Part shown: positions 18,091 to 52,580 of the stretch, in pieces
How positions within the stretch are numbered: the first letter of the stretch is position 1
How the letters are laid out: each line of letters opens with the position of its first letter
Source of the DNA: Chloroflexota bacterium
GTDB lineage: Bacteria; Chloroflexota; Dehalococcoidia; UBA2979
Direction of reading: 5' to 3'
Length of the DNA: 64,000 nucleotides
Assembly (NCBI GenBank): GCA_947472995.1
Contig: CANJBO010000006.1
Coordinates: 1-64,000, forward strand
The notes under the pieces: model-generated
Databases searched by the model: none
What the model saw: only the letters and a program-made list of their open reading frames with translations
Told to the model about the DNA's origin: nothing
Made by a program: the position numbers and the translations under genes

Positions 18091-18119
18091 TTCGATCCGC
18101 CACGTTACTGACCTACGCT
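18091..18119 (+). promoter_or_regulatory. Leaderless promoter of the MutY-like gene
   Basis: TTCGAT (18091-18096), a 17-nt spacer and TACGCT (18114-18119). The -10 ends six nt before ATG 18126, so transcription should start at or next to the start codon. Confidence 0.6.
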
Positions 18120-18125
18120 CACCGC

Positions 18126-19091
18126 ATGTCTCCCGTATCCGCGCCCCGATCCACGAAGGCCGCGCCCCCGACCGACCTCGGCCTCACGCCGGGGCGCATG
18201 CGCACGATCCGCTCGCGCCTCCTCGAGTGGCACGAGGCGCACCAGCAGCCGTTCCCGTGGCGCACGGCGCGCGACCCGTACTCCGCGCTGGTGGCGGCGG
18301 TCGCCGCGCAGCAGACCCAGATGGCGCGCGTCATCGAGATCCACGAGCGGTGGATGCGCGCGTTCCCCACGCTGGGCGACCTCGCCCGCGCCGACCGCGC
18401 CGACGTGCTCCGGGTGTGGGGGCGCGCGGGCTACCCGCGCCGCGCGGTCGCGCTGCACGAGACGGCCCTGCGCTGCATGAGCGAACACGACGGCGCGCTG
18501 CCTCGCGACCCGGTCGCGCTGCTTGCGCTGCCGGGCGTCGGGCCGTTCACGGCGGCGATCGTGCGCACCTTCGGCTGGGACGACGACGCCCCCGCCGTGG
18601 ACACCAACGTCGTGCGCGTCCTCGGCCGGTTGGTCTGCGGCGACCTGCAGCCGGCGCGCGAGACCTCGCCCGCGGCGATCGAGGCGATCGCGGCGCGGCT
18701 GTTCCCGCCCGGCGACGGCGCGCGCTGGAACCCCGCGCTGATGGACTACGGCGGGCGGGTCTGTCTGCCTCGACCGAAGTGCGACGAGTGCGTGGTCGCG
18801 TCGCTGTGCGCGGCGCGTCCGCGCTTTGCCGCTGGCGAGGTCGCCGAGCCGGTGCGCGCACAGGGGCGCTGGGCCGGCTCCGACCGCGAGGGCCGCGGCC
18901 GCATCATGCACGCGCTGCGCACGTCGAACGACGCCGAGGTGCGCGAGACGACGCTGCTGCGCCGCCTCGACGGCGGCGACGCCGAGGAGCGCGCGCGGCT
19001 GCGCCGGCTGCTCGGCACGCTCGTCGCCGACGGCCTCGCGTGGCGCGCGGGCGGTCGCTGCGGGCTGGGGACGGCGCGGGCAACGGAGTAG
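18126..19091 (+). CDS. MutY-like adenine DNA glycosylase lacking the catalytic Glu
   Basis: A 321-residue HhH-GPD DNA glycosylase closest to MutY: FPWRTARDPYSALVAAVAAQ, QTQMARV, HhH LPGVGPFTAAIVRTFGWD, Asp in AVDTNVVRVLGR and an Fe-S loop (CLPRPKCDECVVASLC, about residues 216-231). In MutY the block is PYxVWLSEVMLQQTQ with the catalytic Glu; here the aligned position is Ala (DPYSALVAAVAAQQTQ), so base excision chemistry may be altered. There is no NUDIX-like 8-oxoG recognition domain; the C-terminus (GSDREGRGRIMHAL onward) is a short winged-helix-like end seen in actinobacterial-type MutY. The start is leaderless. It may be a non-canonical glycosylase or a lesion-binding protein. Confidence 0.85.
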   Translation: MSPVSAPRSTKAAPPTDLGLTPGRMRTIRSRLLEWHEAHQQPFPWRTARDPYSALVAAVAAQQTQMARVIEIHERWMRAFPTLGDLARADRADVLRVWGRAGYPRRAVALHETALRCMSEHDGALPRDPVALLALPGVGPFTAAIVRTFGWDDDAPAVDTNVVRVLGRLVCGDLQPARETSPAAIEAIAARLFPPGDGARWNPALMDYGGRVCLPRPKCDECVVASLCAARPRFAAGEVAEPVRAQGRWAGSDREGRGRIMHALRTSNDAEVRETTLLRRLDGGDAEERARLRRLLGTLVADGLAWRAGGRCGLGTARATE

Positions 19092-21808: not shown

Positions 21809-21814
21809 TACACT
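21809..21814 (+). promoter_or_regulatory. -10 box of the leaderless alpha/beta hydrolase gene
   Basis: TACACT ends seven nt before ATG 21822, and no ribosome site is present between them. No good -35 is seen. Confidence 0.5.
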
Positions 21815-21821
21815 CCCCCGC

Positions 21822-22592
21822 ATGACAACCACCGACACCACCCCCTCCAACTTCGCCTGGGGCGCCGAGGCGTCCGCCGAGACCGGCGTGCGCGAGCGCG
21901 ACTTCACCGTGACCGTGGACGGCGAGGCGATCCCCGGCGTGCTGTGGAGCCCGGAGGGCGCGACCGGCCCGTTGCCGCTGGTGCTGATGGGCCACGGCGG
22001 CCAGTCCAACAAGCGCGCCGACCGCATGCAGTCGATCGGCCGGCGGCTCGCGCGGCGGCAGGGGTTCATGGCCGCCTCGATCGATCAGATCGAGCACGGC
22101 GACCGCGGGACGATCACCCTCGACGATGACACCGACTACCGCGCGATGTGGAAGCGCGACGGGCTGATGGCCGCCTCGACGCGCGGGTGGCGCGGGGTCG
22201 CCGCGGCGCTCACCGCGCTGCCCGAGGTCGACGCGGACCGCCTCGGCTACTGGGGCCTGTCGATGGGGACGATGTTCGGCATGGCGTTCGTCGCAGAGGA
22301 GCCGCTGATCCGCGCGGCGGTCCTCGGCCTCGCGAGCCTGACCGGGCCGAGCGTGGACCGCAGCGGCATCCGCCCGACGTTCGAGGCGTACGCGCCGCAG
22401 GTGACGTGCCCCGTGATGTGGGTCGTGCAGTGGGACGACGAGCGCTTCGACCTCGACGGCTCGATCGAGCTGTACAAGCTGCTGGGCAGCAAGAACAAGC
22501 GCCTGATCGCGTTCCCCGGCCTCCACGCCGAGGCCCCCGACGAATCGACCGCCCTCACCCGCGAGTTCCTCGGCCGCGAGCTGACGCGGTAG
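21822..22592 (+). CDS. Alpha/beta hydrolase, dienelactone hydrolase-like
   Basis: A 256-residue serine hydrolase. The oxyanion region is LVLMGHGGQSNKR, the nucleophile elbow GLSMGTMFG (Ser about residue 149), the acid Asp is in VVQWDDERFDLD and the base His in FPGLHAEAPDE. The short cap segment and the CPVMWVVQWDDERF layout resemble dienelactone hydrolase/acyl-peptidase relatives. The N-terminal 30 residues hold TTDTTPSNFAWG without a signal peptide. The gene appears to be leaderless and is followed by a MITE-like element. Substrate unknown. Confidence 0.85.
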   Translation: MTTTDTTPSNFAWGAEASAETGVRERDFTVTVDGEAIPGVLWSPEGATGPLPLVLMGHGGQSNKRADRMQSIGRRLARRQGFMAASIDQIEHGDRGTITLDDDTDYRAMWKRDGLMAASTRGWRGVAAALTALPEVDADRLGYWGLSMGTMFGMAFVAEEPLIRAAVLGLASLTGPSVDRSGIRPTFEAYAPQVTCPVMWVVQWDDERFDLDGSIELYKLLGSKNKRLIAFPGLHAEAPDESTALTREFLGRELTR

Positions 22593-23105: not shown

Positions 23106-24224
23106 CTACTGCTCGATGCGCTGCCAGAGGACGCGGTCGTCGATCTCCATGCGGCGCACGCGGCCGTCCTCGACGAGCACCTGCAGGTGCGACAGCGTCT
23201 CGCCGAGAGCGGCGCGGCGCTTGTAGATGCTGAACGTGTTCCACGGCTTGCTCCACGTCACGCCCTCGGCGACCTCGGTCGCGGAGAGGCGCGAGACGCC
23301 GAGCGCCGTGTCGACCTCGTCGAGGCGCTGGTCGTGGTGCTCGAGGATCTCGAGACAGCGAGCGGGCAGGTTCTCGATCGTGTCCTGGTGCGCGGGCAGG
23401 CCGAGCACAGTATCGAGCGCGGCGACCTTCTGCAGCGACTCGCGGAACTCGCGCAGCGGCGAGCGGGCGATGTCCTCGTCCTCCGCCGACACCGAGACGT
23501 TCGGGGTGATGCGCGAGAGCACGTGGTCGCCGGTGAACGTGAACTTGCGGTTGGGCTCGTGCAGGCAGAGGTGGCCGGGCGTGTGGCCCGGCGTCCACAC
23601 CGCCTGCAGCGTCCACCCGTCGAACGAGTACTCCTCGCCGTCGCGCAGCCGCACGTCCGGCTCGATGCGGCCCATCGCGCGCGTCGCCATCTCCGACTCG
23701 GTCGCGGTGTCGGACGTTCCGGCCGCGCGGCGCGCCGCCATCTCCTGCTCGACCTCGCGCTCCTCGCGGAAGCGCTGGTTGAAGCCGTCGTCGATGTCCG
23801 TCTCGCGCACCGACATGTCGAGGCCGTGGCGGAACGCCCACGCGTCCCCGCCTCGACGTGCCGCGTCCGGGTCGGTGTAGTGCGTGTGGGGGAAGCGCTC
23901 CTGCCCCATCATCACCAGCTCGCACCCGGGCGACTGCGACTTGATCCAGCGCGCCATGCCGAGGTGGTCGCCGTGTGCGTGCGAGACCAGCAGCCGCTTG
24001 ATGTCGGAGACCTCGCCGCCGATCTCGCGCACCTGCTCGGTCAGCGCGTCGATCGCGCCTCGCGTCCCGTAGCCGCAGTCGAAGAGCGTCAGCCCGTCGT
24101 TGCCGCGGAACACGTACGGCGTCGTCCAGCCGAGGCCGCCGGCGACCATGGGGATGCTGAGCCGGAACAGGCCGGGAATGATCTCTTGCACCACGGGACG
24201 GGCCTTTCCAGTCGACGCGCTCAT
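23106..24224 (-). CDS. MBL-fold hydrolase with C-terminal helical domain
   Basis: A 372-residue metallo-beta-lactamase-fold enzyme. Zinc motifs: VSHAHGDHLGMARW (about residues 80-93), WTPGHTPGHLCLH, TGDHVLSRITP and GLPAHQDTIENL. An insertion of about 70 residues (RHGLDMSVRETDIDDGFNQ onward, acidic/Arg-rich) separates the first and second motifs. The C-terminal 90 residues carry a winged-helix-like LGETLSHLQVLVEDGRVRRME, as in LACTB2/thioesterase-type MBL proteins. The start at 24224 has no strong ribosome site. It is a single gene after the groEL terminator region. Substrate unknown. Confidence 0.88.
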   Translation of the reverse strand: MSASTGKARPVVQEIIPGLFRLSIPMVAGGLGWTTPYVFRGNDGLTLFDCGYGTRGAIDALTEQVREIGGEVSDIKRLLVSHAHGDHLGMARWIKSQSPGCELVMMGQERFPHTHYTDPDAARRGGDAWAFRHGLDMSVRETDIDDGFNQRFREEREVEQEMAARRAAGTSDTATESEMATRAMGRIEPDVRLRDGEEYSFDGWTLQAVWTPGHTPGHLCLHEPNRKFTFTGDHVLSRITPNVSVSAEDEDIARSPLREFRESLQKVAALDTVLGLPAHQDTIENLPARCLEILEHHDQRLDEVDTALGVSRLSATEVAEGVTWSKPWNTFSIYKRRAALGETLSHLQVLVEDGRVRRMEIDDRVLWQRIEQ

Positions 24225-24366: not shown

Positions 24367-25998
<1,632 letters not shown>

Positions 25999-26542: not shown

Positions 26543-26580
26543 CCCCTTTTTTCTTGGGACGGTCGATACCTGAAATCGTG

Positions 26581-26586
26581 TAACCT
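26581..26586 (+). promoter_or_regulatory. -10 box of the leaderless Xre-type regulator gene
   Basis: TAACCT ends six nt before ATG 26593, with no ribosome site in between. Confidence 0.45.
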
Positions 26587-26592
26587 CCCGGC

Positions 26593-26898
26593 ATGCCAGA
26601 ACGTATCGACGAGGACTGGACACCCGACGAGGTGCAGCGGCTGCGCTCCTACCTCGACGTGTCGCAGGCGGAGCTCGCGGCGCGGGTGGGGACGCGGCAG
26701 CAGACGATCTCGGAGTGGGAGACCGGCACGCGCGCGCCTCGTCGCATGTCGCGACGCCTGCTCCACCTCGTCGCCGAGGCGTCCGGGTTCTACGCAGTCG
26801 TTCAGGAGGCGAACGCCGGGATACCCGGCACGCCTCCGGCGGACCTGCGGGCGTCGAGCGGCACCGACAGCACACCCCCCGCACCCCCGACTGCATGA
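26593..26898 (+). CDS. Xre-type HTH transcriptional regulator
   Basis: A 101-residue DNA-binding protein. Residues 12-65 form an Xre/Cro HTH (VQRLRSYLDVSQAELAARVG, TRQQTISEWETGTRAPRRMS). The last 30 residues (NAGIPGTPPADLRASSGTDS, TPPAPPTA) are encoded by a family C repeat and low-complexity sequence, so the original C-terminus has probably been replaced or extended. It diverges from the groESL operon and its start codon lies about 50 bp from CIRCE. The stop overlaps the DUF2851 start as ATGA. Confidence 0.85.
   Translation: MPERIDEDWTPDEVQRLRSYLDVSQAELAARVGTRQQTISEWETGTRAPRRMSRRLLHLVAEASGFYAVVQEANAGIPGTPPADLRASSGTDSTPPAPPTA
26815..26829. repeat. Family C hairpin inside the Xre-type gene
   Basis: GCCGGGATACCCGGC, followed by CGCCTCCGGCGGACCTGCGG. 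It encodes AGIPG of the regulator's tail. A close copy with the same GACCT-CGGGC flank precedes ileS (53921). Confidence 0.7.
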
Positions 26899-28284: not shown

Positions 28285-29307
28285 CTAGGAGAAGCGGCGG
28301 CCGCGGCGGACGGCCGTCGGGGTGATGTCGAGCGGGGACTCCGGCGCGACCGCGTCGTCGAGGTGGCGGAAGGCGGCGGCGGCGATCATCGCGGCGTTGT
28401 CCGTGCAGAGCACGGGCGGGGGGATGTGCACCGGGACGGGGGAGCGCTCGACGACGCGCTCGCGCAGGCGGCGGTTCGCGGCGACGCCGCCGGCGACGAG
28501 CATCGAGGCGACACCCTCGCGCTCGGCGGCGCGCGCGGCCTTCTGCGACAGCACGTCGACGACCGACTCCTCGAACGCCCACGCGATCTCGGCGGGGGGC
28601 GGCGCGTCGCTGGACTGGACGAGGTGCAGGACCGCGGTCTTCAGCCCGGAGAACGAGAAGTCGTCGCCCGTGCGGAGCCACGCGCGCGGGAGGCGCAGCT
28701 TGCGCACCTCGGCAGTGGCGGCGAGGTGCGAGATCGGCGGGCCGCCGGGGTACGGGAGGTCGAGCAGCCGCGCGACCTTGTCGAACGCCTCGCCCGCCGC
28801 GTCGTCGCGCGTGCCGCCGAGGCGCTCGAAGCGGCCGTGCTCGCGCATCAGCAGCAGCTCGGTGTGCCCGCCCGACACGACGAGCGCGAGCGCCGGCAGC
28901 TCGGGCGGGGCGCCGTGGCCGCTCGGCGCGCCGGTCGCGGCGTCCAGCCAGTTCGCGCAGACGTGGCCCTCGATGTGGTCGACGGGGATCAGCGGCAGGC
29001 CGCGCGCGTAGGCGAGGCCGCGCGCGCCGTTCAGGCCGATGACCAGCGCGCCGGGGAGTCCGGGGCCAGCCGTCGCCGCGATCGCGTCGATGTCGTCCCA
29101 CGTGCACTCGGCGTCGGCCAGCGCGCGACGGACGACCGGGACGAGCGCGCGCAGGTGGGCGCGCGCAGCGACCTCGGGGACGACGCCACCGGTCTCCTCG
29201 TGCAGCGCGGTCTGGGAGGCGACGACGTTGGAGAGCATGCGCGTGCCATCCGCGACGACCGACGCGGCCGTCTCGTCACACGAGCTCTCGATGCCGAGGA
29301 TGCGCAT
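28285..29307 (-). CDS. tsaD: tRNA threonylcarbamoyladenosine synthase subunit TsaD
   Basis: Transfers the threonylcarbamoyl group to A37 of ANN-decoding tRNAs together with TsaB/TsaE. The 340-residue ASKHA protein shows ILGIESSCDETAASVV, the metal histidines in EVAARAHLRAL and HIEGHVCANWL, GPGLPGALVIGLNGARGLAY, VVSGGHTELL and VAGGVAANRRLRERV, with DNAAMIAAAA near the end. Length and motifs are standard. No tsaB or tsaE is adjacent. GC-rich repeats flank it on both sides, so it is probably monocistronic. Confidence 0.97.
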   Translation of the reverse strand: MRILGIESSCDETAASVVADGTRMLSNVVASQTALHEETGGVVPEVAARAHLRALVPVVRRALADAECTWDDIDAIAATAGPGLPGALVIGLNGARGLAYARGLPLIPVDHIEGHVCANWLDAATGAPSGHGAPPELPALALVVSGGHTELLLMREHGRFERLGGTRDDAAGEAFDKVARLLDLPYPGGPPISHLAATAEVRKLRLPRAWLRTGDDFSFSGLKTAVLHLVQSSDAPPPAEIAWAFEESVVDVLSQKAARAAEREGVASMLVAGGVAANRRLRERVVERSPVPVHIPPPVLCTDNAAMIAAAAFRHLDDAVAPESPLDITPTAVRRGRRFS

Positions 29308-29383
29308 CGGTCGAGTCTAGCGCGCGGGCGGCGCAGCGGCTTCGGGGGTGCGTGCAGGGTGCTGTGTGGTTCGGATCGGGATC

Positions 29384-29595: not shown

Positions 29596-31737
29596 CTAGC
29601 GCGCGGGCGTCGCAGCGGCGCCTGCCCCGACGGGGGTGCTCGCGGCGACGGGCGGCGTGGGGCTCGAGGACGCGCCGTTGGCGGGCGTGCCGGAGGGGGA
29701 CGCAGACGGGGAGCCCGAGGGCTGGACCGGCGGCTGGCCCGCCGGGGCGACGTCGAAGTAGCTGATGCCGTCGCCGCTCAGCAGGAACAGCCGCGATCCG
29801 TCCGCCGAGATGGCGAGGCCGCGCAGGTCGCCGAAGCTCGGGTTGCGGTACTGCCGCACGAACCTGCCCTCGCGGTCGCCGACGACGATGCGCTTGTTGC
29901 CGCGGTCGGCGAGGAACAGCAGCGAGCGCTGGAGGTCCTCGACCAGCGCGACCGGGCCCTTCGGCGGCGTGTCGATGCCGTCGAGGAGCGGGGCGGTCTC
30001 CTTGCCGGAGCGGAAGCGCCGCAGCCGGCCCTGGTCGACGACGTACACATCGCCGTCGACGACGAGCCCGGTCGCGGTGCCGAGGTCGACACCACCGAGC
30101 ATCCCGGTGCGCTCCGAGTCGTAGCCCTCGGACGCCGGGAAGTATTTCCAGATCTCACCCTTGCCGGGGTCGAGGATGTAGAGGCTGCGCTGGTAGACGG
30201 CGATCGCGTTCGGCGAGCCCAGCTCGGGCGCGCCGCGCAGCACCACCGGCACCGGCGTCTTCGCCGTCTCCGACATGGTGAACAGGCTGCGCCCCTCGTC
30301 GAGGAGCAGCAGGCGTCCGCTCTGCGCGTCCCACGCGATGCTCTTCGGGTCGCGCGCCGGCGTGCCGCCGTAGGTCGATCCGGCGCGGTACACCTCCTCC
30401 GGCGTCGAGGGCTGCGCGGCGTCCATGCGGAAGACGCGGCCGCGGTCCGACTCCACGAACCAGATCGAGCGGCCGCCGACGACGACGGTCTGCGGGTTCA
30501 CCGGCGCGGTCACCGTGCCCTCGAACTTCAGCAGCTGCGTCGCGGTGCCGACGTCGCTGACAGCGTCGAGCTTCGACAGCTCCGCCTGCGCCTGTGCCGC
30601 GTACGTGCGGACGCGCGCATCGTCGGGCGCGATGGCGCGCGCCTTCTCGGTCGCCGCGAGGACGGCCTGCAGCGCCTTGCGTCGATCGTCCGCGCGCTGC
30701 GCCGCGGTGGCGGTGGTGAGCTGCTGCTGGGCCGTCGCGAGCACCTTGTCCAGCTCGGCGGCGCGGTCCTGCGTCAGCAAGCCGGGGCCGATCGTCCACG
30801 AAAGGAGCCCGACCGCCAGCAGCGCGCCGACCGCGAGTGCGATCCAGCGCCAGGGCAGCTGCGCCTCCAGCGGCGTGCGACCGACGGTGCGCGCGGGCCG
30901 GCGGATCGAGGGGAACGGGATCGGCTGCGAGGACTGCGGCCCCCAGCGCCGCCGCGCCGTCGGCTCCGGCGCGCGCTCCGCCTCGAAGCGCGGGGCGGCC
31001 GTGCGGTGGCCGGAGTCGATGTCCGGCAGCACGACCTCGCGCCCCTCGATGTCGTCGAGGTCCATGTCCAGCGGGGCGGGCATGCCGCCGTCCTCGATGT
31101 CGAGGTCGGCGACCAGCACGGCGGTCATGTCCGTGACGTCGCGCGTGCGGCGGAACAGCTCCGCGAGCGCGCCCTCCGGCCCGGCGGCGAGCGACTCCTC
31201 GACCTGGCGCAGGCCGATGATCTCCTCGACGGTCGAGGTGAGCAGCAGCACCTCGCGGCCGGAGATGTCGGTCGCGGTGAAGCGCGGCTCGATCTCGTCG
31301 GGACCGCCGAGGGGCGCGGCGGCGGGGAGGCCCTCGGTGGAGAGGCGCGTCATGCTGTGCTGGCCGGAGACGTAGGCGAGGCCGGGGCCGACCTGCACGA
31401 TCGTCGCCTCGCCGTCGCGGATGACCACGCACGTGACGCCGACGGCGACACGGTGCTCGCGCAGGGAGCGGCGGTTCCACTCGGCGAGGTTCGTGTGTGC
31501 CTGCTGGAGCGCGCGGAGCAGGCCGCCGGTGATCGAGAGCGACTCCCGCGCGAACAGCGCGGCGACCGCCTCGGCGACCTCGGAGCAGAACTCGGCGGAG
31601 CGGCGATCGGCCGGCTCGGCGAGGACCAGCAGGCGGATCGTCTCGTCCTCGCGCTCGCGGCGGCGATCCACGAGCCACGGCCCGTGCTCGCGCACCTGCC
31701 CGTCGACGATCGCGTAGCGGCCGACCCACGTGCCCAC
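29596..31737 (-). CDS. PP2C-like membrane protein with extracytoplasmic beta-propeller
   Basis: A 713-residue three-part protein. Residues 1-220 resemble a PP2C/SpoIIE-type phosphatase fold (LLVLAEPADRRSAEFCSEVA; HRVAVGVTCVVIRDGEATIV; VGPGLAYVSG; LLLTSTVEEIIG), but the metal-binding DG and GD/DN pairs are missing, so catalysis is doubtful. A transmembrane helix (WRWIALAVGALLAVGLLSW, about residues 297-315) follows a Pro/Arg linker, then an external coiled coil (DRAAELDKVLATAQQQLTTA). Residues 400-680 form an NHL/YVTN-like propeller (GRLLLLDEGRSLFTM; QRSLYILDPGKGEIWKY). The Ser/Pro/Ala tail is disordered. GTG 31737 follows an in-frame stop. It may pass outside signals inward. Confidence 0.8.
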   Translation of the reverse strand: MGTWVGRYAIVDGQVREHGPWLVDRRREREDETIRLLVLAEPADRRSAEFCSEVAEAVAALFARESLSITGGLLRALQQAHTNLAEWNRRSLREHRVAVGVTCVVIRDGEATIVQVGPGLAYVSGQHSMTRLSTEGLPAAAPLGGPDEIEPRFTATDISGREVLLLTSTVEEIIGLRQVEESLAAGPEGALAELFRRTRDVTDMTAVLVADLDIEDGGMPAPLDMDLDDIEGREVVLPDIDSGHRTAAPRFEAERAPEPTARRRWGPQSSQPIPFPSIRRPARTVGRTPLEAQLPWRWIALAVGALLAVGLLSWTIGPGLLTQDRAAELDKVLATAQQQLTTATAAQRADDRRKALQAVLAATEKARAIAPDDARVRTYAAQAQAELSKLDAVSDVGTATQLLKFEGTVTAPVNPQTVVVGGRSIWFVESDRGRVFRMDAAQPSTPEEVYRAGSTYGGTPARDPKSIAWDAQSGRLLLLDEGRSLFTMSETAKTPVPVVLRGAPELGSPNAIAVYQRSLYILDPGKGEIWKYFPASEGYDSERTGMLGGVDLGTATGLVVDGDVYVVDQGRLRRFRSGKETAPLLDGIDTPPKGPVALVEDLQRSLLFLADRGNKRIVVGDREGRFVRQYRNPSFGDLRGLAISADGSRLFLLSGDGISYFDVAPAGQPPVQPSGSPSASPSGTPANGASSSPTPPVAASTPVGAGAAATPAR

Positions 31738-32474: not shown

Positions 32475-33548
32475 CTAGCCTCCGATGTACGACATCTCGA
32501 CGCGGCGGAGGCCGGCGGTCGAGGCGGAGCGCTGCTCCGAGTAGCGATCCTCGCGCGCCGTCCACGTGGCGTCGATGAGCGCGAGGAGATCTTCATCGGT
32601 CGCGCCGCTGCGCATCGCGGCGCGGAAGTCGGCGCCGGCCTCGGCGGCGAAGAGGCAGGTGTAGATCGATCCCTCCGCGGAAAGGCGGGCGCGGGTGCAG
32701 GTGCCGCAGAACGGCTGCGTCACGGAGGTGATGACGCCGATCTCGCCGGCGCCGTCGCGGTAGCGATAGCGCCGCGCGACCTCGCCCTCGTAGCTCGCCT
32801 CGATCGGCTCCAGCGGGAACTCGGCGTCGATCTGGCGCACGAGGTCGGCGGCCGGGACCACCTCGTCCATCTGCCAGCCGTTGGTGCTGCCGACGTCCAT
32901 GAACTCGATGAACCGCACGATGTGCGGCGTGCCGCGGAAGTGCCGCGCGAGGTCGAGCAGCGTGTGGTCGTTCACGCCGCGGCGCACGACCGCGTTCACC
33001 TTCACCGGCAGCCCGGCGGCCTCGGCGGCGTCGATGCCCTCAAGCACCATCGCCACCGGGAAGTCCATGTCGTTCATCGAGCGGAACACCGCGTCGTCGA
33101 GGGAGTCGAGGCTCACGGTGACGCGATCGAGGCCGGCGCGGGCGAGCGGCTCCGCCATCGTCTTCAGCAGCGTGCCGTTGGTGGTCATCGCAATGTCCAT
33201 GCCGGGGATCGCGTCGAGCATCTCCACCAGCGCCGGAAGCTGGGCGCGCAGCGTCGGCTCGCCCCCGGTGAGGCGGAGCTTCCTCACGCCGCGCGAGGCG
33301 AACAGGCGGGCGATCCGCGCGATCTCCTCGAACGTCATGATCTCGGCGCGCGGGAGGAAGGCGAAGTCCGCGCCGAAGACTTCCTTGGGCATGCAGTAGC
33401 GGCAGCGGAAGTTGCAGCGGTCGGTGACCGAGATGCGGAGATCGTGCAGCGGCCGCCCGAGCCGGTCCACGAGGACAGGCGCGCCCGAGGATGCCTCGAG
33501 GGGCGCGTGCCCCTCGATCTCCGAGGAGTCGAGGTCTGGGTGGGGCAT
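32475..33548 (-). CDS. moaA: GTP 3',8-cyclase MoaA
   Basis: Radical SAM enzyme that cyclises GTP in the first step of molybdenum cofactor synthesis. The 357-residue protein has the SAM cluster motif [10 protein letters not shown] (about residues 47-56), [33 protein letters not shown]-type [13 protein letters not shown], and the C-terminal cluster [20 protein letters not shown] with C following. It ends in IGG, the conserved Gly-Gly tail. ATG 33548 is chosen because a TACACT box lies six nt upstream, indicating a leaderless transcript. moaC follows. Confidence 0.97.
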
Positions 33549-33554
33549 GCATCC

Positions 33555-33560
33555 AGTGTA
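33555..33560 (-). promoter_or_regulatory. -10 box of leaderless moaA
   Basis: On the minus strand TACACT ends six nt before ATG 33548. Confidence 0.5.
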
Positions 33561-33606
33561 ATCCCTGTCGTGCGCTGGACCGGAGGCGGGAGGGACGGAA
33601 GCGGAA

Positions 33607-33655
33607 GCCCTCACCCCAGCCCTCTCCCACAGGTGGGAGAGGGGGCCGGATGCTC
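33607..33655. repeat. Family A hairpin repeat, single unit
   Basis: GCCCTCACCCCAGCCCTCTCCCAC with its complementary GTGGGAGAGGG arm, between the divergent moaA and rsmJ genes. Confidence 0.7.
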
Positions 33656-33663
33656 GTTCCCGC

Positions 33664-33669
33664 TACGAT
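33664..33669 (+). promoter_or_regulatory. -10 box of leaderless rsmJ
   Basis: TACGAT ends six nt before ATG 33676. Confidence 0.5.
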
Positions 33670-33675
33670 CACCTG

Positions 33676-34506
33676 ATGGACGACCTGACCGAGGCCTCCG
33701 AGCGCGCAGTGGTGGTCGTCGTCACCTCGACCGACCCGGCGCTGCGCGCGACGGCCGCCGCCCGCGCCGAGGCGCTCGGCCTGTCGTTCGTCAACGACGC
33801 CGCGGGGCTCCCCGCGGGGACGCTGCTGCTCACCCTCGACGCCGACGGCTGGTCGCTGGCCGACCCGGCGCCGGGCGCACCGGGGGCGGTCCGCGCCGAT
33901 CTGATCGGGGGCGGGCTGGGCGAACGGCTGCGGCAGGGGGGGCGCGGCGAGGGCCGCCTGGCGTCCGCGCTGGGCCTGAAGCGCCACCCGGGCGCGCGCG
34001 TGCTGGACGCGACGGCCGGCCTCGGGCGGGAGAGCGCGCTCGCGGCGGCGCTCGGCTGCACGGTGATCGCCTGCGAGCGCTCGCCGATCGTCGGCACGCT
34101 GCTGCGTGACGGCTTCGACCGCGCCGCCGAGGAGCCCGGCCTCGCGCTGGTCCTCGATCGCATCGACCTGCGCGTCGAGGATGCGCGCGACGTGCTGGCG
34201 TCGCTCGCCGCGGGCGACGACGAGGCGCGCCCGGACGCGGTGATCGTCGACCCGATGTTCCCCGAGCGCAGCAAGGCGGCACGCGCGAAGAAGGAGATGC
34301 AGCTGCTGCAACGGCTGCTCGGCCCGGACGACCCGCGCGACACGATCGCGCTGATCGAGGCGGCGCTCGCGACGGCGCGGCGACGCGTGATCCTCAAGCG
34401 CCCCGCGCACGCGCCGCAGGTGGCCGGCGTGCGCGCGCCCGACCTCGAGGTGCCCGGGCGCTCGGCGCGCTACGACGTGTACCTGATCGCCCCGCCGCGG
34501 CTGTAG
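33676..34506 (+). CDS. rsmJ: 16S rRNA (guanine1516-N2)-methyltransferase-like RsmJ
   Basis: SAM-dependent methyltransferase of the RsmJ (YhiQ) family, 276 residues. The SAM motif is VLDATAGLGRESALAAALGC (about residues 109-128), followed by VIACERSPIVGTLLRDGFDRA, the catalytic region DAVIVDPMFPERSKAARAKKE, and VILKRPAHAPQ. The order and spacing match RsmJ closely; in E. coli it modifies G1516 of 16S rRNA. The N-terminal 60 residues are less conserved. The gene is leaderless. It converges with the GNAT gene with a 6-nt gap. Confidence 0.9.
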   Translation: MDDLTEASERAVVVVVTSTDPALRATAAARAEALGLSFVNDAAGLPAGTLLLTLDADGWSLADPAPGAPGAVRADLIGGGLGERLRQGGRGEGRLASALGLKRHPGARVLDATAGLGRESALAAALGCTVIACERSPIVGTLLRDGFDRAAEEPGLALVLDRIDLRVEDARDVLASLAAGDDEARPDAVIVDPMFPERSKAARAKKEMQLLQRLLGPDDPRDTIALIEAALATARRRVILKRPAHAPQVAGVRAPDLEVPGRSARYDVYLIAPPRL

Positions 34507-37677: not shown

Positions 37678-37683
37678 AGATTA
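37678..37683 (-). promoter_or_regulatory. -10 box upstream of the fbp operon
   Basis: On the minus strand TAATCT ends nine nt before ATG 37668. Confidence 0.45.
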
Positions 37684-37790: not shown

Positions 37791-37796
37791 TAGAGT
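37791..37796 (+). promoter_or_regulatory. -10 box of leaderless folC
   Basis: TAGAGT ends eight nt before GTG 37805. Confidence 0.4.
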
Positions 37797-42346: not shown

Positions 42347-43153
42347 CTACTCGCGCCGCAGGTCGAGGAAGCGCACGGCGTTGCCGCCGAGCACGGCGGC
42401 GCGCTCCGCGGGATCCGGCAGCGCCGCCTCGATCAGCGCGCGGTCGGCGGCCTGGTCACGCAGCGGGAAGTCCGACCCCCAGCACACGGCGCCGGCCCCC
42501 GCGAGGTCGAGGCCGCGGCGCACCGCCTCCGGCGCGTACAGCAGCGACGACGCGGCAGTGTCGAACACCAGCCGGCCCGCCTCGATCACCGTGCGCACCT
42601 CGGGCATCAGCGCGTAGAACGGGAAGCCGCCGCCCCAGTGCGCCGCGATCACGCGCGCCCCGGGCTGCGCGTCGAGCAGCCGCCACAGCGCGCCCGGCGT
42701 GAGCCCGCCGGGCTTGCCGGGGTACGCGTGGCCGACCTCCTCCGAGCAGTGCACGAGGATCGGCAGATCGTCGACGTCGAGGCTGGCGGGATCGGCCACA
42801 CGGACCTCCCCGCGACCGGCGGCGCCGGGCAGCGCGTCGCCTGCGGACTGCGGCACGAACGGGACGATGCGATCGGGGTAGCGCAGCGCACTGGCGAGGA
42901 GGTACGCGGCGTGCTCGCCTCGGCGGGCGCGGTCCCGCCACCAGAAGCCGGCGGCGACCGCCACGTCCACGCCCGCCGCGTCCATCGAGGCGATCAGGTC
43001 CTCGGCCGTCGCCATCTGCGCCCGCGCGGATCCGTACATCTCGCCGAACGCGGCGTCGGAGCCCGACAGGCGCGCGCGATCCTCGATGAAGTGTGGCGGG
43101 AAGATGTGCGTGTGGATGTCCACGACGAGCGGGTTCGGGGTGGTGGATGCCAT
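42347..43153 (-). CDS. Amidohydrolase-2-type metal-dependent hydrolase
   Basis: A 268-residue TIM-barrel hydrolase. The metal site begins with VVDIHTHIFPPHFIED (HxH), a second group is ILVHCSEEVGHAYPGKPGGL, the third is ARVIAAHWGGGFPFYALMPE and the last Asp is in AVCWGSDFPLRDQAAD. This is the pattern of the amidohydrolase-2/decarboxylase (ACMSD-like) family. The start ATG 43153 has a TACGAT box six nt upstream (leaderless). Substrate unknown. Confidence 0.9.
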   Translation of the reverse strand: MASTTPNPLVVDIHTHIFPPHFIEDRARLSGSDAAFGEMYGSARAQMATAEDLIASMDAAGVDVAVAAGFWWRDRARRGEHAAYLLASALRYPDRIVPFVPQSAGDALPGAAGRGEVRVADPASLDVDDLPILVHCSEEVGHAYPGKPGGLTPGALWRLLDAQPGARVIAAHWGGGFPFYALMPEVRTVIEAGRLVFDTAASSLLYAPEAVRRGLDLAGAGAVCWGSDFPLRDQAADRALIEAALPDPAERAAVLGGNAVRFLDLRRE

Positions 43154-43159
43154 GCTCGA

Positions 43160-43165
43160 ATCGTA
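43160..43165 (-). promoter_or_regulatory. -10 box of leaderless amidohydrolase gene
   Basis: On the minus strand TACGAT ends six nt before ATG 43153. Confidence 0.5.
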
Positions 43166-45256: not shown

Positions 45257-46564
45257 CTAGGAGCGGGCGAGGGCCTCGACCGGCGTGCAGAGCAGGTCGT
45301 ACGGGAGCGCGCCATCGATGTGGACGCGCACCATCGAGCCCATCGGGTAGGTGCCCTTCACGAGCGCGAGGCCGTCGACCTCCGGGGCGTCGCGGGCGGT
45401 GCGGCCGACGACGATCGCCTCGCCGGTGGCGGACTGGCCGGGCTCGCGTGACTCGATCAGCACGTCGACCTCGCGACCGACCTGTGCGCGGTTCGCGGTG
45501 TGCGAGATGCCCTGCGCCAGCTCCATCAGGCGGCCGTAGCGCTCCTGCTTCACCGCCTCCGGCACCTGGTCGGCGTACGCGGCCGCGGGCGTGCCGACCT
45601 GCGGCGAGTACGTGAACGCGCCGACGTGGTCGATGCGCTCCTCCTCGACGAAGCGCAGCAGCTCGCGGAACTCCTGCTCCGTCTCACCGGGGAAGCCGAC
45701 GATGAACGTCGAGCGCAGCGTCACGTCCGGGATCGCGCGGCGGATCGTCTCGATGCTCCGGTAGGACTTCGCCAGCGTCGGCCGCTTCATGCGCCGCAGC
45801 ATCGAGTCGCTGCCGTGCTGGAGCGGCATGTCGAGGTACGGCACGACGTTCGGCAGCGACGCCATCGCCTCCGCGAGGCGCGGCGTGACGCGGCCGGGGT
45901 ACGCGTACATCAGGCGGATCCACGGCACTTCCGGCACGCCGGCCGAGAGGTCCTCGAGCAGCGCGGCGAGGCCGTCGCGCATGCTCTCGTCCTCGGCGTA
46001 CGCGGTGGAGTCCTGCGCGACCAGCACCAGCTCCTTCGCGCCGGCGGCGGCGTACATGCGCGCCTCGGCGACGAGGCGACCGACGGGCGCCGAGTGCATG
46101 CCACCCTTGATCGTCGGGATGATGCAGAACGTGCACGGCCGGTCGCAGCCGTCGGAGATCTTGAGGTACGCGCTGGGCGCGCCGAGCACCGGCAGCGCGA
46201 CGGCCGGGATGTCGTACGTCTCGCTCGCCGCGCCGATCGAGGCGGAGATCTCGTCCCACTGCTCCACGCCGAAGGTCGCGTCGATGTTCGGGACGGCGGC
46301 ACGCACCTCGTCCTCCGCGATCTGCGTCATGCAGCCGACGACGTAGAGCTTCTGGTCCGCGCGACGGTTCGCATCGAGCTGGCGAACGACGTCGACGGAC
46401 TCGTCCTTCGCGGCGTCGATGAAGCCGCAGGTGTTGACCACCAGCAGGTCGGCATCCTCGGGCGTGGTGACGCCGACGTGGCGGCCCGTGCGCAGCGCGT
46501 GCTCCAGTCGCATCGAGTCGACGGTGTTCTTCGCGCAGCCGAGGGTGACGAGGTGGTACTTCAC
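45257..46564 (-). CDS. rimO: Ribosomal protein uS12 methylthiotransferase
   Basis: Radical SAM enzyme that methylthiolates Asp88 of ribosomal protein S12. The 435-residue protein has the UPF0004 domain (VTLGCAKNTVDSMRLEHAL, VNTCGFIDAAKDES, VVGCMTQ), the SAM cluster SDGCDRPCTFCIIPTIKG and a C-terminal TRAM domain. RimO-type rather than MiaB-type marks are the short N-terminus LGCAKNTVDS, the VAQDSTAYAED segment and LMYAYPGRVTP. Length and order are normal. The downstream 246 bp contain the leader described separately. Confidence 0.95.
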   Translation of the reverse strand: MKYHLVTLGCAKNTVDSMRLEHALRTGRHVGVTTPEDADLLVVNTCGFIDAAKDESVDVVRQLDANRRADQKLYVVGCMTQIAEDEVRAAVPNIDATFGVEQWDEISASIGAASETYDIPAVALPVLGAPSAYLKISDGCDRPCTFCIIPTIKGGMHSAPVGRLVAEARMYAAAGAKELVLVAQDSTAYAEDESMRDGLAALLEDLSAGVPEVPWIRLMYAYPGRVTPRLAEAMASLPNVVPYLDMPLQHGSDSMLRRMKRPTLAKSYRSIETIRRAIPDVTLRSTFIVGFPGETEQEFRELLRFVEEERIDHVGAFTYSPQVGTPAAAYADQVPEAVKQERYGRLMELAQGISHTANRAQVGREVDVLIESREPGQSATGEAIVVGRTARDAPEVDGLALVKGTYPMGSMVRVHIDGALPYDLLCTPVEALARS

Positions 46565-46642
46565 AGAACCACCAGTCTACGGCCGCACGGGTTCAGGGCG
46601 CGATTCGGGTGCGCGAGGACAATCGCGGGTCGTCAGAGGGAA

Positions 46643-51829: not shown

Positions 51830-51835
51830 TAACGT
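51830..51835 (+). promoter_or_regulatory. -10 box of leaderless methyltransferase gene
   Basis: TAACGT ends seven nt before ATG 51843. Confidence 0.4.
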
Positions 51836-51842
51836 CGTCGGC

Positions 51843-52580
51843 ATGCACGACGATGGCTACTTCGACGAACGCATCGCCGCCCGCTACGACGAGTCCTCCG
51901 CCGAGATGTTCGAGGCGGCGAGCGTCGATCCGGTGGTCGATTTCCTCGTGCCGCTTGCGGGCGACGGCCGCGCGCTGGAGCTGGGCATCGGCACGGGGCG
52001 GATCGCGCTGCCGCTCGCGCGTCGCGGTGTGCCCGTGCACGGCATCGACCTGTCGAGCGCGATGATCGCGCGGCTGCGCGCGAAGCCGGGCGGCGCGGAC
52101 ATCGGGGTGACGGTCGGCGACTTCGCGACCGCGCGCGCGGAGGGGACGTTCGCCCTCGCGTACCTCGTCTTCAACACGATCATGAACCTCACGACCCAGG
52201 AGACGCAGACCGCGTGCTTCCGCAACGTCGCGGCGCACCTCGAACCCGGCGGCACGTTCGTGATCGAGACGATGCTGCCGGACCTCCAGCGCCTCCCGCC
52301 CGGCGAGACGGTCCGCCCCTTCCGCGTCGCCGAGGACCGCTGGGGCTTCGACGAGTACGACGTCGCAAACCAGGGCCTGACGTCGCACCACTTCGCCGTC
52401 GTGGACGGCCGGCTGGAGCGCTTCTCCGCTCCGTTCCGCTACGTGTGGCCCGCCGAGCTGGACCTGATGGCGCGCCTCGCCGGGATGACGCCACGCGAGC
52501 GGTGGTCGGGCTGGCAGCGCGAGCCGTTCACGAGCGACAGCCGACGCCTCGTGGCGGTCTGGGAGAAGCCCCGCGACTAA
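51843..52580 (+). CDS. Class I SAM-dependent methyltransferase
   Basis: A 245-residue Rossmann methyltransferase. Motif I is ALELGIGTGRIALPLARRGV (about residues 44-63), followed by VHGIDLSSAMIARLRA, ALAYLVFNTIMNLTTQETQT and LEPGGTFVIETMLPD. The beginning IAARYDESSAEMFEAASVDP is common to small-molecule methyltransferases. The substrate is unknown. The gene starts 33 nt after murJ and has its own -10 box. Confidence 0.9.
   Translation: MHDDGYFDERIAARYDESSAEMFEAASVDPVVDFLVPLAGDGRALELGIGTGRIALPLARRGVPVHGIDLSSAMIARLRAKPGGADIGVTVGDFATARAEGTFALAYLVFNTIMNLTTQETQTACFRNVAAHLEPGGTFVIETMLPDLQRLPPGETVRPFRVAEDRWGFDEYDVANQGLTSHHFAVVDGRLERFSAPFRYVWPAELDLMARLAGMTPRERWSGWQREPFTSDSRRLVAVWEKPRD

Follow-up and report, generated by a model that had tools for sequence, protein, structure and literature searches.

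TAnnnT boxes at a fixed distance from start codons point to leaderless genes in a GC-rich Chloroflexota genome

Introduction

In Mycobacterium tuberculosis, about a quarter of the genes with a primary transcription start site (TSS) are leaderless (Cortes et al. 2013, PMC3898074). ATG and GTG are used similarly in leaderless and leadered genes of that organism, whereas leaderless initiation in E. coli requires ATG (PMC3898074). In Deinococcus-Thermus, a -10 motif adjoins ~30% of open reading frames (ORFs), an arrangement that has been reporter-tested (Zhong et al. 2025, PMC12340547). Within the Chloroflexi, TA-led genes have been predicted in 4 of 12 genomes, at a mean of 4.7% of genes (Zheng et al. 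2011, PMC3160421). Leaderless genes of the TAnnnT type are a known kind, with Actinobacteria and Deinococcus-Thermus as established cases and Chloroflexi as a predicted one.

We analyzed the genome of an uncultured Chloroflexota bacterium (assembly GCA_947472995.1; 1.78 Mb, 55 contigs, 73% complete, 72% GC), with particular attention to a 64,000-nt window, positions 1-64000 of contig 6. One protein from the window shares 78% to 52% identity with its counterparts in the nearest Chloroflexi/Dehalococcoidia metagenome genomes, so the lineage probably belongs to the Dehalococcoidia. An earlier note on this DNA had listed nine genes or operon heads in which a TAnnnT box ends 6-9 nt before the start codon, described leaderless genes as widespread, and proposed a genome-wide count of such boxes relative to starts. 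The statistics below come from 840 of 1779 kb of the genome and 717 called genes. Genes were called with a codon model trained on codon-position GC, which is blind to upstream motifs. As the caller is home-made, its start calls carry errors, and we complemented it with annotation-free counts that are independent of it; start codons are predicted throughout.

Results

TAnnnT is enriched at two spacings before ATG

The proposed count, run on 840 kb, gave a sharp peak. TAnnnT lies 6 or 7 nt before an in-frame ATG in 66 cases where ~6 are expected (717 genes): 43 ATG starts carry it at spacing 6 and 23 at spacing 7, against ~3 per spacing elsewhere (Poisson P ~3e-34 and ~2e-13, respectively). Decoy ATGs within genes (4520) yielded 0-1 TAnnnT per spacing at the same positions. 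Counting the pattern on both strands without gene calls gave 63 occurrences at spacing 6 and 32 at spacing 7, compared with ~11 at other spacings, and in this annotation-free count the spacing histogram was flat when GTG, TTG, CTG, ATC or ACG was substituted for ATG. Spacings 8 and 9 showed no genome-wide enrichment among the 717 genes. That the nine listed boxes are a chance selection from many TAnnnT sites, as the two of them at the non-enriched spacings 8-9 might hint, is extremely improbable: the excess at spacing 6 holds irrespective of the examples chosen, it recurs in all GC-rich relatives, and the spacing histogram already refutes this explanation.

The signal is specific in sequence as well as position. 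When the motif was permuted or altered at similar composition, no comparable peak appeared, and strong enrichment was limited to the T, A and T of box positions 1, 2 and 6. Positions 4 and 5 favor A and C, and the motifs T..A.T (12) and T...AT (15) showed lesser peaks at spacing 6 that fit the preference for A at the boxes' inner positions. A search for a -35 element in 58 boxes returned no motif, with a mere trace of T and G where one would be expected, so it is by the -10 box that these putative promoters are recognized. With TAnnnT-N6-ATG, the box would occupy -12 to -7 and +1 would fall on the A of the start codon.

Box-bearing genes lack Shine-Dalgarno sites and lie at operon heads or after short gaps

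None of the 58 genes with a box at spacing 6-7 carries a Shine-Dalgarno (SD) 5-mer, which is found at 4% of control positions; with a 4-mer criterion, the count is 3 of 58 against 326 of 652 other genes (P 1e-12). Internal operon genes, to which the earlier note had assigned GGAGG-type sites, do have SD 5-mers in 25% of cases, but these are almost equally common among operon heads without a TA box (24%) and so do not set internal genes apart. A congener has an intact anti-SD sequence, CCTCC, in its 16S gene, a gene absent from this assembly, so SD-led and leaderless modes would coexist.

Fifty-five of the 58 box genes are operon heads or follow gaps of 26-79 bp, and the box occurs in just 3 of 177 tightly spaced operon-internal genes. 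This distribution bears on the idea that the boxes are not promoters but mark an S1-type site, or unstructured AT-rich sequence, that aids translation. For other phyla, S1 binding has been discussed as a meaning of AT-rich sequence near -10 (PMC5397173), but operon-internal genes would need translational help equally, the T, A and T of positions 1, 2 and 6 keep a fixed spacing, and other AT triplets of equal composition show no strong enrichment; we regard this explanation as very improbable.

It is also unlikely, though a little less so, that the boxes are promoters whose true protein starts lie downstream, behind a short SD-bearing leader. The start codons are predicted, and a few N-terminal extensions differ among orthologs, which would suit such a reading. 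Against it, in-frame starts within the next 60 nt that follow an SD are not commoner in box genes (2 of 58) than in others (75 of 652), and the fixed distance between box and ATG would be without reason. In tsaD orthologs, moreover, the protein starts with the conserved MRILGIESSCDE motif just behind the box. Coding bias in the box genes begins at the predicted ATG.

We estimate that leaderless genes make up 8-9% of all genes and ~10% of promoter-proximal genes or operon heads, a sequence-based figure that takes in exact TAnnnT boxes only, with background subtracted. The signal behind the description "widespread" is thus real, on a more modest scale than that word conveys.

Leaderless candidates in the window

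All nine boxes of the earlier note are present at the positions it gives, and its gene identities agree with the domain matches (Table 1). Its range of 6-9 nt stands for the seven boxes at the enriched spacings of 6-7; the remaining two have spacings of 9 nt (fbp operon head) and 8 nt (folC) and, those spacings not being enriched, are not distinguishable from chance by spacing alone. A TAnnnT kept nearby in their orthologs would fit a very short leader, and at best these two genes would have one of one to three bases. The gene encoding tsaD is a further case in the window, absent from that list. The operon headed by the DUF1122 gene includes fructose-1,6-bisphosphate aldolase/phosphatase.

Table 1. 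TAnnnT boxes and the genes that they precede in the window
Gene	Box	Box positions	Strand	Spacing (nt)	Gene or start positions	Remarks
mutY-like	TACGCT (-10)	18114..18119	+	6	18126-19091	HhH-GPD domain
dienelactone-hydrolase-like	TACACT (-10)	21809..21814	+	7	21822-22592	
Xre-type HTH	TAACCT (-10)	26581..26586	+	6	26593-26898	
tsaD	TAGACT (-10)	29314..29319	-	6	28285-29307	PF00814, 294.6 bits
moaA (GTP 3',8-cyclase)	TACACT (-10)	33555..33560	-	6	32475..33548, ATG at 33548	TIGR02666, 374 bits (cutoff 284); no SD 5-mer; predicted leaderless
rsmJ-like (SAM-dependent methyltransferase)	TACGAT (-10)	33664..33669	+	6	33676..34506, ATG at 33676	PF04445, 179.9 bits; predicted leaderless
DUF1122 gene, fbp operon head	TAATCT	37678..37683	-	9	start 37668	
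folC	TAGAGT	37791..37796	+	8	start 37805	GTG start; Mur ligase domains
amidohydrolase	TACGAT (-10)	43160..43165	-	6	42347-43153	Amidohydro_2
rimO	TAGACT	46574..46579	-	9	45257-46564	GTG start; same box at spacing 6 in congener G001
methyltransferase	TAACGT (-10)	51830..51835	+	7	51843-52580	Methyltransf_25

The divergent genes moaA and rsmJ are separated by exactly the 127 bp described earlier (33549-33675), with a box on each strand. Between their predicted promoters, at 33620-33643, lies a REP-like palindrome, CCCTCTCCC-N6-GGGAGAGGG; 839 kb contain 25 strict copies of it, each of them intergenic, and nine of these are inside the window. We searched the window for known structured leaders, such as a molybdenum-cofactor riboswitch upstream of moaA, and found none, a tRNA being the sole match. 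In several related genera (L060-L063, L068), moaA has a GCAC-N-GTGC-type inverted repeat ~10-25 nt ahead of its -10 box; no such repeat is evident upstream of moaA in this genome. Across the genome sample, divergent gaps with leaderless starts on both sides number 4 pairs where 1.9 are expected, which is not significant (P 0.12). Two divergent pairs on contig C4 (G000, 25346-25383 and 23660-23706), both predicted to be leaderless on each side, are separated by gaps of 38 and 47 bp, in which the two promoters must overlap if the prediction holds.

Elsewhere in the window, GAAATCGTGTA (26560-26592) overlaps the -10 box of the Xre-type gene and is kept in G001, as the palindrome ACACGATTTCGTGT, and in G006; it is a possible self-repression site. 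A 713-aa protein encoded at 29596-31737 has no NCBIfam match and four matches in the genome collection, all in Chloroflexota metagenome genomes.

The box moves with the start codon in relatives

In 13 of 30 family orthologs of moaA, a start is preceded by TAnnnT at spacing 6-8. Several begin 21-39 bases further upstream on the aligned protein, the box having shifted along with the start; no box was seen in the remaining orthologs, a number of which appear to lie closely behind another gene. Most GC-rich tsaD orthologs in the family have a box at spacing 6-7, directly ahead of the conserved N-terminus. G001, G005 and G019 retain the rsmJ box, TACGAT, in front of a GTG start, TAnnnT-N6-ATG is found at the Xre-type gene of G001 and G006 as well, and the amidohydrolase of G001 has TAGGAT-N6-ATG at a shifted start. 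In moaA, tsaD, rsmJ and the amidohydrolase, box and start codon are in register across orthologs. The two boxes at wider spacing have counterparts too: TAATCT-N9-ATG is retained before the DUF1122 gene of G001, and a folC ortholog in G016 is preceded by TACACT-N8-ATG.

Whole-genome counts at spacing 6 versus spacing 12 were 132 and 23 in this genome, and spacing 6 exceeded spacing 12 by 2-6x in each of the 28 GC-rich genomes of the family. Its AT-rich members are uninformative, their TAnnnT background being too high, and for that reason we dropped the notion that they have lost leaderless genes. Among 150 further genomes of Chloroflexota, some families (e.g. f36, f48, f56, f66) share this excess and others lack it.

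Predicted leaderless starts are strongly biased toward ATG

The 58 predicted leaderless starts comprise 54 ATG and 4 GTG (93% and 7%), and GTG makes up 30-39% elsewhere: 46 of 157 starts among SD 5-mer genes, where 107 are ATG, and 29 of 74 among overlapping genes, the other 45 being ATG. GTG use differs between leaderless and SD genes with P 2e-4. GTG is thus less frequent in leaderless than in other genes, departing from the similar use of both codons seen in M. tuberculosis. We considered a strict absence of GTG leaderless starts and dropped it, given clear GTG cases in relatives and a small genus-level excess at GTG (58, versus 545 at ATG). The estimated GTG share, which has large errors, is 0.10 in this genus and up to ~0.3-0.4 in sister genera (0.4 in g14). 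As sister genera appear to use GTG more, GTG avoidance among leaderless starts is a bias and not a rule.

Discussion

Position-specific enrichment, the lack of SD sites, the limitation to promoter-proximal genes, conservation in orthologs and the signal in GC-rich relatives together support a leaderless reading. On this sequence evidence, TAnnnT is very probably a SigA-type -10 element from which transcription starts at the A of the ATG, with leaderless initiation operating beside SD-led initiation. The housekeeping (SigA-type) sigma factor would bind TAnnnT as the -10 element, and RNA polymerase would start at the first base of the ATG or at the base just upstream. The resulting mRNA would have neither leader nor SD site, and the ribosome would recognize the 5'-terminal AUG directly, by a 70S or a 30S route.

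Through the ATG bias, the ways in which ribosomes accept a start codon at the 5' end can be compared in a natural setting. It is conceivable, though we hold the idea only tentatively, that leaderless starts in this genus are almost exclusively AUG, resembling E. coli and differing from M. tuberculosis, while sister genera also use GTG. If so, the start-codon tolerance of leaderless initiation would have shifted within one family, and its ribosomal or factor basis would be accessible by comparison. There is also a practical consequence: gene callers that expect an SD site misplace leaderless starts, which bears on the annotation of many uncultured Chloroflexota genomes.

Our results would add high-GC Chloroflexota, in which the share varies by lineage, to the groups that use a mode for which Actinobacteria and Deinococcus are the best-known cases. 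Zheng et al. (2011) studied members of the same phylum and read a TA-like signal ~10 bp before the start as leaderless; theirs were medium-GC genomes with TAtaaT, whereas here the lineage is uncultured, 72% GC, and carries TAnnnT at ~8-9% of genes. The arrangement resembles that of Deinococcus-Thermus in its ORF-abutting -10 box, fixed spacing and, here as judged from sequence, leaderless promoter, but the share is lower than the ~30% of ORFs reported there. As in M. tuberculosis, we find a TANNNT -10 element, no conserved -35, predicted transcription from the start codon and SD-led genes alongside (PMC3898074). Unlike the roughly one quarter in that organism, leaderless genes here account for ~10% of promoter-proximal genes, and the one departure from the M. 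tuberculosis pattern that is less expected is the strong bias toward ATG, which begins 93% of leaderless genes.
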